64,000 nt of DNA from Candidatus Sulfotelmatobacter sp. (GTDB lineage Bacteria > Acidobacteriota > Terriglobia > Terriglobales > Acidobacteriaceae): the NCBI GenBank assembly GCA_030041475.1, contig JASHNU010000068.1, positions 1 through 64,000 of the forward strand. Direction: 5' to 3'. Positions within the stretch are counted from its first letter, which is position 1; the number at the start of each line of letters is the position of its first letter. This document shows positions 1,761 through 15,024 of the stretch, piece by piece. A program made the position numbers and the translations under genes. Under the pieces are notes generated by a model. That model had not been told where the DNA came from, did not search any database, and saw only the letters and a program-made list of their open reading frames with translations.

Positions 1761-1818
1761 CCTAAAGCTGTGACATACCTCACAGACGTCCACACACTGC
1801 CTGTCTCAGCCTCCAAGA

Positions 1819-8646: not shown

Positions 8647-9084
8647 TCATCTTCTGCGCAGCCCGTGCAGCACAAACATGCCACCGAGGGCAAAGCAGAG
8701 CACTGCTCCCAGAGCGGCGACCTGCATGAGGTTCGAACTGAGGTGGAGGCGGTCGGCGAAAACCGCGCCGATTGCGAAGACAAGTCCCAACCCATTCAAC
8801 CATACCGGCGCGCGCACGGAAGCGCTCACATCCTTGCGCAGGCGCAATTGCAGCAGCAGGGCTGCAAGTCCGATGGCAGCCACGACCACCAGTGCCAGCG
8901 GACTCAGAAACGCGGCGCGGGTCGTGTAGATGACGACCAACGCCAATGCAAGCAATAGCAGGCCGGCGGCGATGATCGTCCAGCGGCGCGAGGAGGGCGA
9001 CTTGGGATCGGCATCGGGCAAGGAGTCAAGTCCCAAGTTATACAGGCGGAGCACAGGGTTTTCAAATGGAGAGGCAGAACTCAT
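8647..9084 (-). CDS. Small membrane protein with four or so helices, unknown function
   Basis: About 145 residues. After a hydrophilic N-terminus (about 1-30) four hydrophobic stretches are visible (WTIIAAGLLLLALALVVIYT, FLSPLALVVVAAIGLAALLL, APVWLNGLGLVFAIGAVF, LMQVAALGAVLCFALGGMFV). No family recognised. ATG 9084 overlaps the TGA of the upstream LuxR-type gene (ATGA), so the two are coupled and probably act together. Confidence 0.7.
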   Translation of the reverse strand: MSSASPFENPVLRLYNLGLDSLPDADPKSPSSRRWTIIAAGLLLLALALVVIYTTRAAFLSPLALVVVAAIGLAALLLQLRLRKDVSASVRAPVWLNGLGLVFAIGAVFADRLHLSSNLMQVAALGAVLCFALGGMFVLHGLRRR

Positions 9085-9812
9085 GCGCGCGGCGAGTTCT
9101 GGCCGATGCTGACAAGCCACTCGGCTTGGCGCGGGTCTCCATTGTTGACGGCGTACAGCACGAGTTCGACGCGGCTGGAGATGCCGAGCTTCTCGAAGAT
9201 GCGGAAGAGGTATTTCTTGATGGTATGTTCGCTGAGGCTGAGTTCGCGGGCGATCTGGCGATTGCCCAGGCCTTCGGCGACGAGAGCGACCACCTGCTCT
9301 TCGCGTGGAGTCAGCAGGGAGCTGCCGTGAGAATTGAGCACCCGCAGCGAGGGGACCTCAGAGACGAGATCGAGCAGGTAGCCGAGTTGTTCTGTGTTCG
9401 CCCAGATCTGGCCGCCAGCCACGCGCAGCAGGCATTTGCACAACAATTTCAGATTGGAGTCGGTGAGAGCGAAGATGCCGCGAACTCCAGAACGAAAGGC
9501 GCTGACGACCAATGCGCGGTCGCAGGCAGCGACCAAGAGAACTTTGGGAATTTCGGGATGGGCGAGATGAAAACTCCGCAGGGTCGTCACGGTTTCCACA
9601 ATGTTGGCGGGCGGATTTAATGAGAGCAATGCGACGCGGGGAGGTTTGGACGTGACGGCCTGAAGGATGGACACGGTGTCCATGTGGCACGTGGCAATAC
9701 GGAACTCCGGACGGCGACGCAGGGCACTGGTCAGCAATTGGGCCTGCATACGGTTGGAATCCGCCACGAGGACTTGCACGGCGTCCGAAGTGGCGGCGGA
9801 CGACGGGCACAT
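9081..9812 (-). CDS. LuxR/NarL-type regulator with degenerate receiver domain
   Basis: About 243 residues. The N-terminal half has a receiver (REC) fold, but the phospho-acceptor position in PPRVALLSLNP is Ser instead of Asp and the conserved Lys near GIFALTDS is missing, so phosphorylation is unlikely. The C-terminal part (about 170-232) is a complete LuxR helix-turn-helix: LLTPREEQVVALVAEGLGNR, QIARELSLSEHTIKKYLFRI. It likely binds DNA constitutively or responds to another input. ATG 9812 gives a compact protein; an in-frame ATG at 9866 is possible. It diverges from the exopolysaccharide locus across a 600-bp gap and may regulate it. Confidence 0.88.
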   Translation of the reverse strand: MCPSSAATSDAVQVLVADSNRMQAQLLTSALRRRPEFRIATCHMDTVSILQAVTSKPPRVALLSLNPPANIVETVTTLRSFHLAHPEIPKVLLVAACDRALVVSAFRSGVRGIFALTDSNLKLLCKCLLRVAGGQIWANTEQLGYLLDLVSEVPSLRVLNSHGSSLLTPREEQVVALVAEGLGNRQIARELSLSEHTIKKYLFRIFEKLGISSRVELVLYAVNNGDPRQAEWLVSIGQNSPRA

Positions 9813-10031
9813 AGAAAAGGGTCCCCCGCAAAAACAGCAAAGTATTCTCCGATTGTAGGGACGCATGAGAATTGTTCACAGGGCTCGTGCCTTAAAATCT
9901 GTGCGCGATTTTCAAAACGGGAATTGGAATTTTGCGCGGAGATTGAAGCCTGAAATACGATTGAGATTGTGGAAGGCTGTTCGTAACGCGGTGTGGGGCA
10001 AGGCCTTGAGCGCTGAGCGAAGGCAAGGTTT

Positions 10032-10047
10032 TGTGATGGCAATCACA
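10032..10047. promoter_or_regulatory. CRP/FNR-family binding site, exact TGTGA-N6-TCACA
   Basis: TGTGATGGCAATCACA is a perfect match to the E. coli CRP consensus half-sites with the correct 6-base spacer. It lies about 373 bp upstream of the first exopolysaccharide gene. Confidence 0.6.
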
Positions 10048-10062
10048 GCTTCGATTTTTTGT

Positions 10063-10078
10063 TGTGATTGCGATCACT
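10063..10078. promoter_or_regulatory. Second CRP/FNR-like dyad (TGTGA-N6-TCACT)
   Basis: TGTGATTGCGATCACT lies 31 bp (three helical turns) downstream of the first dyad, on the same DNA face. One half-site base deviates. Between them is a T-tract (10055-10060). Confidence 0.55.
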
Positions 10079-10419
10079 GGCTCAGTTTCATCACGGGAAA
10101 TTCGCGGGGCGCACATTTCTTGACCTTGTGATCTGGCAAAAACACAAGTCCACTTTTGTGGGTACCCCGAAGGTAGGCCCCGCCCCGGAACTTGGTACCC
10201 GCCTTTTCTGATGTGAATCTCCGCAAGCAGTTGATTCGATACGACCCTTCGTGTGGCTGAACGTTTTTCCCGCCGCTTGCTGCTATCCACTTTTGTATAC
10301 ACCACTTCCCATGTCTTGTTGATCGCGAGAGGTGCGATTAACTTGCGCAATAGAGAGTCATTCAGAAATGAGAATGACCTCCTTTGCAGAGTTAGACGTT
10401 GAGGAAGTTCGGAGAAAGA

Positions 10420-11178
10420 ATGAAGCGCGTAGCAATCGTGCTTCTGGTAGTGCAGTGTTGGTCGGCCGCCTGCGCGCAGACTCAAGAGCTAAGCGCAGGC
10501 AAAGAGACCTCCTCGTCAGGCTTAACCGGAGCCGGGGCGGGAGGCAGCAGCACAACGGCCGCAAAACCCGGGCGGGCGGATGGCCTGGGAAACCCTTTAC
10601 TCGGAGGGGAGCGCCATCCGCTCTACCGGTTACGGCCCAGCGATGTTGTGACCATTAGTTTCACGGTGGCGCCGGAGTTCAACCAGACCCTGACCGTGCA
10701 GCCGGACGGTTACTTGATGTTGAAAGACGTGGGAATGATTGAGGTGCAAGGTTTGAATCTCGAGCAATTTCAGGAGGCCGTGCAAAAGTCGTATCGCAGA
10801 TATCTGCATGACCCGCAGGCGGCGGTTGCATTAAAGGATTTTGCACGACCGTACTTCATCGTTGGTGGGCAGGTCGAGAGGCCGGGCAAGTATGAATTGC
10901 GCTCGGACACAACCGTCGCCGAGGCCGTGCAGATTGCAGGTGGCCTGACCCTGATGGCGAAGTGCTCGCAGATCGTGCTGTTTCGCCGGGTGGACGACGA
11001 CCTGGTGGAGACGCATCTGCTCGACCTTAAAAAGATGCTCAAACAGAAGAGCCTCAAAGAAGATGCGCATTTGCGCCCCGGCGATCTCGTTTTTGTTCCA
11101 CAAAATGCGATTTCGAAAATTGCGCCTTTCCTGACCAGGCCCTCCATGAGCATGTATGTAAATCCGACTGAATTTTGA
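10420..11178 (+). CDS. Polysaccharide export protein (Wza/Poly_export family, SLBB domain)
   Basis: About 252 residues. A signal peptide (MKRVAIVLLVVQCWSAACAQ) is followed by a Poly_export domain (YRLRPSDVVTISFTVAPEFN, VQPDGYLMLKDVGMIEVQGL, about residues 70-150) and one SLBB domain (FIVGGQVERPGKYELRSDTT, about 155-225). Proteins of this type form the outer-membrane/periplasmic channel for exopolysaccharide. A cysteine near the cleavage site could be lipidated, but the lipobox is poor. GGAG 7 bases before ATG 10420 supports this start. It opens the exopolysaccharide operon; the next gene starts at its stop codon. Confidence 0.92.
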   Translation: MKRVAIVLLVVQCWSAACAQTQELSAGKETSSSGLTGAGAGGSSTTAAKPGRADGLGNPLLGGERHPLYRLRPSDVVTISFTVAPEFNQTLTVQPDGYLMLKDVGMIEVQGLNLEQFQEAVQKSYRRYLHDPQAAVALKDFARPYFIVGGQVERPGKYELRSDTTVAEAVQIAGGLTLMAKCSQIVLFRRVDDDLVETHLLDLKKMLKQKSLKEDAHLRPGDLVFVPQNAISKIAPFLTRPSMSMYVNPTEF

Positions 11179-12698
11179 CCGTGACTTCCCTCACTCGCAT
11201 GCCAGACGAAGACCCAATCCGCCGACGAAGCCAGACACCAGCACCAACTGTGCGGGAAGTGGCGACCGTGTTGTTCCGCCGGTGGAGGGTCTTCGTCTGG
11301 ACGTCGGGGCTGGTGTTGGCCGCGGCGGTTCTGTATGTGGTCGCTGGAGCGAGATATGAAGCCGAAATGAAAATTCTGGTGCGGCCAGGGCGCGCGGACG
11401 CCCCGGTCAGCGCACAGGAGAATGCTCCGCTGGATTTGACGCGTCTCGAGATCACGGAAGAAGAACTGAACTCGGAGGTGGAACTGCTGCAAGACGAGTC
11501 GGTCTTGCGCAGGGTGGTTGAGGACAACAATTTGGGCGGTCGCGACTGGCTGCATTTCCTGCGGCTGGACGAAGGTCATGCTGAACGGGTGGAGCGCGCG
11601 GCTCGGCGCCTGGCCAAGAAGTTGAAGGTTGAACCCGTCAAGAAAACAAATCTGATTACCGTGAAGTATCCCTCGGAGGATCCACAACTGGCAGCGAAGG
11701 TTCTGCAGTCATTGGCGGATGCGTACGTGGAAAAGCATGCGGTCGTGCATCGGCCGGGCGGTGAAGTTCATTTTTTCGAGAAACAGACATCCGAATCTCG
11801 CCGCCAGCTGGAAGAGGCGCAGCAGAAACTGCTCGACTTTATGACGCGGCGCGAAGTCGTTGTGGCAGCTCAGGAACGCGATCTGGCGCTGCAACGACTG
11901 AGCGTGGCTGACGCCAGCTACCACGAGACTCGCGTGGAGTTAGCGGAGACCAGAGAGCGGGTACGGGAATTGGAGGCGCAGTTGAGGGACTTGCCGGAGC
12001 GCGCAACCACGCAGATTCGTTCGGCGGACAATCCCGAGGTACTCGCCGCATTGAAGTCGACTTTACTCGGCTTGCAGGTGAAGCGGGTCGAATTGTTGAC
12101 CAAGTTTGAGCCCGCGCACCCGCTGGTACAGGAGATCGAGCAGCAGATCGCGCAGACACAGGCCGCGATTATGACTGAGAACCAGCACCCTGTTCGCGAC
12201 GAGACCACCGACAAGAACACGCACTATGAGTGGGCCAAGTCGGAATTGCAGCGGGCGCAGGTGCAGTTGAAGGGATTGGAGGCCCGCGTCGCGGCGACCG
12301 GAGCGCAGGAAGCAGAGTACCGGGCGACGGCGCGGCGTTTGGGCGAGGATGCGATCACGCAGGACGACCTCGTGAATACAGAACACGCGGCCGAGGACAG
12401 CTATTTGCTTTATGTGAAGAAGAAGGAAGCGGCGCGCATGGCAGATGCGCTTGATGAGCGCGGCATCGTCAACGTTGCTATCGCAGAACAGCCGGTCGCT
12501 CCCGCGCTGCCCCGATGGTCCACCTGGGCTGTGCTGGCGGTCGGATTGGTGGCGGGCAGTGTGGCCGGCACGGGAGCGGCCTTCGCGGCCGACCATGCCG
12601 ACGCCGGTTTCCATACCCCGGATGACGTGCTGGTCTACCTGGATGCTCCGGTGCTGGCGTCCTTGCCGTGTCCTGCACGAGGAAGGCTTCCAGCATGA
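11175..12698 (+). CDS. Polysaccharide chain-length determinant (Wzz/GumC family)
   Basis: 507 residues with the standard layout: N-terminal membrane helix (about 38-58), a Wzz domain just after it (YEAEMKILVRPGRADAPVSA), a long alpha-helical coiled-coil middle (about 180-400, e.g. RRQLEEAQQKLLDFMTRREV), and a second membrane helix near residues 447-470. It sits in the inner membrane and sets polymer length with its kinase partner and the export channel. Starts TTG 11175 (overlapping the previous TGA), GTG 11181 and ATG 11199 are all possible. The stop overlaps the following gene (ATGA). Confidence 0.9.
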   Translation: MTVTSLTRMPDEDPIRRRSQTPAPTVREVATVLFRRWRVFVWTSGLVLAAAVLYVVAGARYEAEMKILVRPGRADAPVSAQENAPLDLTRLEITEEELNSEVELLQDESVLRRVVEDNNLGGRDWLHFLRLDEGHAERVERAARRLAKKLKVEPVKKTNLITVKYPSEDPQLAAKVLQSLADAYVEKHAVVHRPGGEVHFFEKQTSESRRQLEEAQQKLLDFMTRREVVVAAQERDLALQRLSVADASYHETRVELAETRERVRELEAQLRDLPERATTQIRSADNPEVLAALKSTLLGLQVKRVELLTKFEPAHPLVQEIEQQIAQTQAAIMTENQHPVRDETTDKNTHYEWAKSELQRAQVQLKGLEARVAATGAQEAEYRATARRLGEDAITQDDLVNTEHAAEDSYLLYVKKKEAARMADALDERGIVNVAIAEQPVAPALPRWSTWAVLAVGLVAGSVAGTGAAFAADHADAGFHTPDDVLVYLDAPVLASLPCPARGRLPA

Positions 12699-13401: not shown

Positions 13402-15024
13402 GTGTCGATTGCGGGCATTAATCCTACGCAGCAAGAGAAACCACCAAGCGGCTGGGAACGGATGATTCCAGGCGCAACGGCTGTACCGCGGGAGGCGTTC
13501 GGGGGGCAGAAAAAACCGCCACGCTCGGTGAGGCCCGCGGAGTTGGCGGAAGTAACCGAACTCCCGAGCCAGCCCGCGATCGGTCATGAGAATCGGTTGA
13601 GGCTCCTCGTCCCGGGTCCGCTGCAGAAACGCACAGCGTGGAAGTGGCTGCGCTCCACGGCAACCGACTTCGCGCTCGTGGCTTTGAATTGGCTGCTGAT
13701 GGGAGCGGTGCTGGTGCCGCTACGGTCCGCGTTTCCTCGAGTTCGCTTGTTCGAGTATGCCGCGGGCGCACCCGTGTCCCTGCTCGGAATTGCAATCTTG
13801 CATGCGGCCCTGATTACGCTGCTCAGCTACACAGAAGGTTTGTACGGATCTGGCGTCGATTTGCGAGCGGAAGTGCGAATTCTTGGCAAATCGATCCTGC
13901 TCGCCACGACAGTGCTGGTTCTTGCCTACGGATTGCAGGGATTTCCCTTGGTCACCGCCGCACTGTTCTTTGCCGCCGGATGGCTACACTTTGGTGCTTT
14001 AACCGCATGGCGCTGGCAGGCCGACCGGCAACAACGGCGCGGCGAAATCTGCAGCAGACATCTACGAAACGTGTTGATCGTTGGGGCGAACGGCGTTGGG
14101 CGATGGATGGCGTCGCACGTTGCGGCGCATCCTGAGTCCGGGAGGGTAGTGCGCGGCCTGCTGGATAACGAAAGGCCGCTCGGCGACGGGGTCATTGGGC
14201 GTGTCAGCGATCTGGCGCGGCTGGCGCGCACGGCATTTGTCGACGAGGTCATTCTGGCGGCGCCGCGTGACCGCAACCTGACTCTGCAAGTGCTGCAAGA
14301 GGCGCGGCGTTTGCGGTTAGACGTGGAACTCGTTCCCGAGCTCTTCGGGTGCAAACCATCCGCGAGTGAAGTGGACCGCGTTGGAGAGCTGCCGGTGATC
14401 TGCCTGCACTCAGAGCGGCTGCCCACGGCGGCACTGGTACTGAAGCGGCTTGTGGATGTGGCGGCATCGGGGCTGGCGTTGCTGGCGTTGTCACCGCTGC
14501 TTGCGGCGATTGCGGCGCTGATCAAGCTGGACTCGCCGGGGCCGGTGTTCTACAGCGCTTTGCGCGCGGGCCGGAAGGCAAGGCCGTTTCGTTGCTGCAA
14601 GTTCCGCACCATGGTAACGAATGCCGACGATTTGAAACTGCACTTGCGGCAGCAGAACCAGAGGTCGGGGCCATTCTTCAAGATCACCCACGATCCGCGC
14701 ATCACGCGGGTGGGACGCTTCCTGCGGCACTACAGTCTCGACGAGCTTCCCCAGCTTTGGAACGTATTGAAGGGCGACATGAGCTTGGTGGGGCCCAGGC
14801 CGCATCCGCTGGACGATTTTGCGGAGTATGAGATTGAGCACCTGGCGCGGCTGGACGTGACGCCGGGCATCACTGGCCTGTGGCAGGTGACCGCACGACG
14901 CGATCCGTCGTTTCAGCGGGGCATGGAACTGGACCGGGAGTACATCCGGACTTGGAGCCTGGTCCGCGACGTGCAAATTCTTTTGAAGACGGTGGCGGCT
15001 GTGGTGCACGGGAGCGGGGAGTGA
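13402..15024 (+). CDS. Polyprenyl-phosphate sugar phosphotransferase (priming glycosyltransferase, WbaP/WcaJ type)
   Basis: 540 residues. It starts repeat-unit synthesis by moving a sugar phosphate from a nucleotide sugar to undecaprenyl phosphate in the inner membrane. The N-terminal half has about four membrane helices and a Rossmann-like CoA_binding_3 domain (VLIVGANGVGRWMASHVAAH, about 220-300). The C-terminal half is the bacterial sugar transferase domain: KRLVDVAASGLALLALSPLL, FRCCKFRTMV, LDELPQLWNVLKGDMSLVGP, GITGLWQV. GTG 13402 has GGAG about 10 bases upstream. Its stop overlaps the next start (GTGA). Confidence 0.94.
   Translation: MSIAGINPTQQEKPPSGWERMIPGATAVPREAFGGQKKPPRSVRPAELAEVTELPSQPAIGHENRLRLLVPGPLQKRTAWKWLRSTATDFALVALNWLLMGAVLVPLRSAFPRVRLFEYAAGAPVSLLGIAILHAALITLLSYTEGLYGSGVDLRAEVRILGKSILLATTVLVLAYGLQGFPLVTAALFFAAGWLHFGALTAWRWQADRQQRRGEICSRHLRNVLIVGANGVGRWMASHVAAHPESGRVVRGLLDNERPLGDGVIGRVSDLARLARTAFVDEVILAAPRDRNLTLQVLQEARRLRLDVELVPELFGCKPSASEVDRVGELPVICLHSERLPTAALVLKRLVDVAASGLALLALSPLLAAIAALIKLDSPGPVFYSALRAGRKARPFRCCKFRTMVTNADDLKLHLRQQNQRSGPFFKITHDPRITRVGRFLRHYSLDELPQLWNVLKGDMSLVGPRPHPLDDFAEYEIEHLARLDVTPGITGLWQVTARRDPSFQRGMELDREYIRTWSLVRDVQILLKTVAAVVHGSGE

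Follow-up and report, generated by a model that had tools for sequence, protein, structure and literature searches.

A tandem pair of CRP/FNR-type dyads far upstream of an exopolysaccharide operon looks like part of a redox-type rather than a cAMP control network

The exopolysaccharide locus and its dyad pair

The window, a 64-kb stretch of DNA from the soil Acidobacterium Candidatus Sulfotelmatobacter (G000:C38), belongs to an assembly of 4.63 Mb that is 99.56% complete. It carries an exopolysaccharide (EPS) operon, preceded by a regulatory gene in divergent orientation. The dyads and several conserved elements lie between the two.

9081-9866, minus strand: divergent LuxR/NarL-type regulator (GerE HTH), likely true start near 9812
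10032-10047, no strand: dyad 1, TGTGATGGCAATCACA, exact TGTGA-N6-TCACA, putative operator of CRP/HcpR type
10063-10078, no strand: dyad 2, TGTGATTGCGATCACT, one mismatch (final base T instead of A), putative operator
10148-10163, no strand: distal EPS box, GTCCAC-TTTT-GTGGGT, near-palindromic; consensus in relatives approximately GTCTACTTTNGTRGGT (alignment of 30 loci and genus scan)
10285-10300, no strand: proximal EPS box, ATCCAC-TTTT-GTATAC; consensus in relatives approximately YCCACNTTGGTAGAC
10303-10344, plus strand: promoter-like block, CACTTCCCATGTCTTG...TAACTT, conserved in the locus alignment
10423-11178, plus strand: first EPS gene, polysaccharide export protein (Poly_export, SLBB)
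11175-12698, plus strand: chain-length determinant-like protein (TIGR03007, 135.7 bits, under its cut-off)
13402-15024, plus strand: bacterial sugar transferase (initiating glycosyltransferase type)

The initial annotation placed an exopolysaccharide operon downstream of the dyads, and matches to Poly_export, sugar transferase, Wzy_C and glycosyltransferase families bear this out. The GerE domain of the divergent LuxR/NarL-type protein is matched in Pfam, and no Pfam family was matched for a receiver domain. Judged by eye, the N-terminus of this protein is receiver-like, with LSLN at the position expected for the phospho-acceptor aspartate. For many of the LuxR/NarL-type proteins of relatives, the alignment begins only at about residue 11-19.

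The exact dyad and its one-mismatch copy are present as first described, with a start-to-start distance of 31 bp. They begin 391 bp (dyad 1) and 360 bp (dyad 2) before the EPS ATG at 10423, which confirms their location far 5' of the first EPS gene. In Desulfovibrio, the CRP/FNR-family regulator HcpR is described with the consensus wTGTGAnnnnnnTCACAw (PMC1274295). Dyad 1 matches the core of this motif and its left flanking T fits w, while the base flanking it on the right is G; dyad 2 has T as its last base.

Taken singly, dyads with at most one mismatch are unremarkable in the 64-kb window, where 3 are observed and 1.36 expected (a count of 3 is attained in 15 of 100 shuffles), and the significance lies only in the close pair. 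A pair spaced 16-60 bp apart and containing an exact member appeared in 0 of 600 dinucleotide shuffles of the window, and any close pair with at most one mismatch per dyad in 2 of 600. The two dyads are real, non-random sites of the CRP/FNR type. Another exact dyad, TGTGACATACCTCACA, is found at window positions 1769-1784.

Dyads across the genome and the genus

A genome scan for the motif, suggested as a check in the initial annotation, detects 27 exact TGTGAN6TCACA sites, compared with 0 for the reversed-pattern control. By our own arithmetic about 4 are expected in 4.6 Mb at equal base frequencies, so some of the 27 may be due to chance. Close GTGAN6TCAC pairs number 5, against 0 for the reversed control. 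The proposed CRP/FNR-type nature of the window's sites holds, and they are members of a genome-wide set. Across 45 genomes of the genus, 100 tandem pairs are distributed over 35 genomes, and the reversed control yields 2. This excess points to a regulator of TGTGA-N6-TCACA specificity, frequently using tandem sites, which very probably operates in the genus.

The spacing could be tallied for the 80 of these 100 pairs with readable letters (75 from the genus scan and 5 from the genome itself), which are not independent because orthologous promoters recur. A distance of 22 bp is found in 44 pairs, 34-35 bp in 16, 31 bp in 4 and other values in 16. The dominance of 22 and 34-35 bp rules out 31 bp as the standard spacing of the genus, and a role of 31 bp as a preferred cooperative distance is not supported. 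A second pair of identical form, with an exact dyad followed by a T-ending copy at 31 bp, is present in the same genome at G000:C43:29863. An AdhE-like gene begins approximately 770 bp beyond it (NF010378, E 7.6e-90; the match is a partial fragment under the whole-protein cut-off). The association of this pair with AdhE is loose, since a small ORF without a Pfam match lies in between.

Neighbouring genes were annotated at 18 of the 27 exact dyads, the window's own two being among the 9 left out; the neighbours were chosen by eye from ORF lists, with no background control. Nine of the 18 sites have plainly redox, respiratory or fermentative neighbours: 2-hydroxyglutaryl-CoA dehydratase, two PFOR-type proteins, AdhE, NiFe hydrogenase, cytochrome c, ETF, an Fe-S flavoprotein and a cytochrome assembly protein. 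A generous count reaches 13 by adding acetate permease, methylmalonyl-CoA mutase, a radical-SAM protein and citrate synthase. The remaining 5 do not fit (tRNA synthetase, AsnA-like, GalT-like, LpxK-like under its cut-off, and carboxypeptidase-regulatory-like). At the pair loci of relatives, 10 of which were annotated among 30 fetched, the neighbours are mixed: radical SAM in four cases, glutamate dehydrogenase, a glycosyl hydrolase, OTCase, a TonB-type protein, and two without a match.

One 34-bp tandem pair (L151, G000:C43:227798-227845) has a radical-SAM gene on one side and a multihaem cytochrome gene on the other, and pairs of 34-35 bp resembling it recur in relatives. The gene for a candidate regulator, L035 (C43:221593), is located about 6 kb from this pair and about 15 kb from a PFOR dyad. 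Because C43 is a large contig, the presence of two regulators and several dyads on it carries little weight. Elsewhere, an exact dyad (L005, G000:C33:8317-8332) is flanked by an acetate-permease-like gene on one side and on the other by the CRP/FNR gene L037, which it precedes by around 550 bp, and autoregulation of L037 is possible.

Conservation of the divergent promoter region

We aligned 30 loci, the best 30 EPS matches among 61 genomes. The LuxR/NarL-type gene adjoins the EPS gene in 29 of them and is divergent in 28 of those. Both boxes, distal and proximal, as well as CATGTCTTG can be recognised in 28 of the 30 loci; the exceptions are L047 and L048, and L064 is degenerate. In the genomes of these two exceptions (G004 and G001, respectively) the boxes are present in separate matches. 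In G004, approximately 1.4 kb separates the promoter block from the EPS gene, as if by insertion (L022 / L047, G004:C157). In G001, the EPS export gene has the opposite of its usual orientation with respect to the divergent promoter region (L048 / L018, G001:C100), which is either a real inversion or an effect of assembly or contamination.

The distal box is a candidate site for another regulator, and its pattern with up to one mismatch occurs in 39 of the 45 genus genomes, partly at loci other than EPS. The EPS box CTAC-N4-GTAG has some resemblance to a BlaI/MecI operator. At L183, L184 and L186 (G065, G030 and G026), copies of the same GTCTACTTTNGTAG palindrome are found within an apparent dispersed intergenic repeat, TGTCAAGTCTACTTT. 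Within the promoter-like block, a -35 element TTGTTG (10316-10321), a 17-nt spacer and a -10 element TAACTT (10339-10344) can be read by eye, with a start near 10351. A consensus promoter scan of 9800-10450 on both strands reported none. Relative to the predicted start, the dyads are at about -281 and -312.

The dyads are poorly kept. An exact GTGAN6TCAC is present in the intergenic region of 3 of the 28 divergent-order loci (G000, twice, G022 and G034), and two more contain the core with one mismatch, close to the shuffling level. G001, with its reoriented EPS gene, has GTGAN6TCAC at the dyad 2 position; the further regions of G004 and G064 are without it. The dyad 2 position is thereby occupied by the core in 3 of 31 relatives (G001, G022 and G034). 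No counterpart of dyad 1 was found in the regions of the 31 relatives examined, nor was the pair found conserved as a pair among them. On a midpoint-rooted tree, G000, G001, G022 and G034 fall into one supported group that comprises 12 of 27 rows. The dyad 2 label requires at least 2 changes on that tree, and 6 of 500 shuffles are equally low. In G015 (L021, G015:C480, 479), a GTGAN6TCAC is enclosed by the two EPS boxes, distal and proximal, a position unlike that of the window's dyads.

The retention of boxes and block in 28 of 30 loci, set against the poorly kept dyads, suggests that the main control of the operon is located within 10148-10344. The boxes and the promoter-like block, perhaps via the linked LuxR-type protein, are probably the main switch. 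The dyads look like a minor, lineage-specific addition to a far better conserved promoter.

It is possible, if rather unlikely, that the operator serves the divergent LuxR/NarL-type gene and affects EPS indirectly through that regulator. The gene stands beside the EPS gene in nearly all aligned loci, mostly in divergent orientation, and the dyad centres are about 173-204 bp above 9866 (about 230-260 bp above 9812), nearer than to the EPS start. However, no clear promoter can be assigned to it near the dyads, with none reported by the scan on either strand, and direct activation would still have to span a long distance.

The sites could also be vestigial or neutral, bound without regulatory effect, as is common far from start points. 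The restriction of dyad 1 to this genome and of dyad 2 to three relatives, next to conserved boxes and promoter block, agrees with such a state. We nevertheless consider it doubtful: the shuffles make the chance persistence of two near-perfect, in-phase dyads unlikely, the dyad 2 position is kept inside one clade, and tandem dyads are widely used in the genus.

Candidate regulators and the role of the pair

The PF13545 profile identifies four CRP/FNR proteins above its cut-off in the genome (L035, L036, L037 and L038), in agreement with Pfam. In an alignment with E. coli CAP, three of the four (L035, L036 and L038) retain the DNA-contact residues R180, E181 and R185. L037 keeps R180 and E181, has T at 185, and has R at 82 and 123.

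G000:C43:221593, C43:189868 and C18:108028: candidate regulators of the pair

The residues E72, R82, S83, R123, T127 and S128 are the cAMP-contact positions of CRP. None of them is kept in L035, L036 and L038 in the alignment with CAP, where E72 falls in a gap. These three proteins share an N-terminal C-X2-C-X8-C motif, and a candidate fourth cysteine, judged by eye, is present in L038 only. The cysteine spacing differs from that of E. coli FNR, so that Fe-S binding by the candidates is a guess.

All four proteins stay below the NCBIfam cut-offs. Their top models are CRP for L038 and L037, FtrB followed by Fnr for L035, and Fnr and FtrB about equally for L036. The curated Fnr model, with a cut-off of 228, gives L035 only 62 bits and L036 67.1 bits. 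The closest solved structures of L035 are other CRP/FNR regulators; FNR-type structures come after these and align from residue 12-14.

Classical cAMP-CRP control of the capsule by catabolite state is very unlikely, even though the dyads agree with the E. coli CRP consensus and the DNA-contact residues match CRP. It would also fit the best scores of L038 and L037 on the CRP model (below cut-off) and the R at 82 and 123 in L037. Yet a search for class III adenylate cyclases, limited to PF00211, gave 0 matches in the 99.56% complete genome, while the same search in control genomes found matches in 5 of 14. Moreover, L037 lacks R185, and the dyad neighbours point toward anaerobic metabolism. cAMP as the ligand, one of the options in the initial annotation, is therefore not borne out: no PF00211 cyclase was found, and, unlike E. 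coli CRP, the three proteins that keep the DNA contacts have lost those for cAMP.

It is highly improbable that the dyads are chance palindromes or a terminator or hairpin component: they are able to base-pair with one another, but the shuffles and the reversed-pattern controls oppose chance, and the absence of a terminator-like site in 9800-10450 rules out the terminator or hairpin reading.

The reading we prefer, with moderate confidence, is that the pair is a tandem operator for an FNR/HcpR-like, non-cAMP CRP/FNR regulator that may modulate the EPS region from afar. The pair appears to belong to a control network that responds to oxygen or redox state, not to cAMP. Two regulator dimers would bind on one face of the DNA, three helical turns apart, in the stretch between the divergent LuxR/NarL-type gene and the EPS operon. 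With the dyads some 280-310 bp above the start predicted by eye, class I or class II contact of a dyad-bound regulator with RNA polymerase is unlikely. The dimers would instead act over a long range, either on the divergent gene or by assisting or impeding a regulator bound at the conserved boxes. Low oxygen or redox state would in this way adjust EPS output. The sequence shows the sites, their non-randomness, the genome-wide set to which they belong and the DNA-contact residues of the candidates; binding, signal, direction of effect and target gene are inferred. More tentatively, an FNR-like redox regulator with CRP-type DNA specificity could serve, from about 300 bp away, as an architectural partner of the regulator at the GTCTAC-N4-GTAGAC boxes of the widely conserved LuxR/EPS divergent promoter.

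Several known systems offer parallels. At malK-type promoters, CRP is found beside an activator of the LuxR-HTH kind. The window resembles these E. coli promoters in combining a divergent region with CRP-type sites, and differs in that its dyads sit outside the two boxes. CRP is described as a structural element at E. coli malK (PMC8844925). The same source describes a site for the CRP-like regulator MrpC at dmxB of Myxococcus xanthus whose centre is at -409 relative to the start codon; it lies 112-274 bp above the mapped starts and is too distant to block RNA polymerase (PMC8844925). The CRP-like sites of the window are at a comparable distance, for which MrpC would be a precedent of remote action; the target gene and the consensus are different, and the evidence is direct for MrpC and drawn from sequence here.

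A further parallel is HcpR, which is involved in stress regulation in the anaerobe Desulfovibrio. According to the source on this regulator, positions 180 and 181 track the bases of the motif, and the HcpR, DNR and NnrR proteins analysed there are without the FNR-type cysteine motif (PMC1274295). Our system shares with HcpR, as described there, the CRP-like dyad and candidate regulators with R180 and E181. Unlike HcpR, the candidates carry an N-terminal cysteine cluster. A literature search on exopolysaccharide control in the group turned up nothing in the sources it covered, and control of this operon seems little studied; a search on tandem CRP sites together with EPS returned nothing relevant.

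The pair is a real but ordinary regulatory element, and its interpretation has moved from cAMP to redox. If the dyads work as proposed, EPS production would be responsive to oxygen or redox state. The conserved two-box EPS promoter with its linked regulator is the better experimental target and the more interesting lead, and a tandem-dyad regulon across the genus likewise emerges from the comparison.
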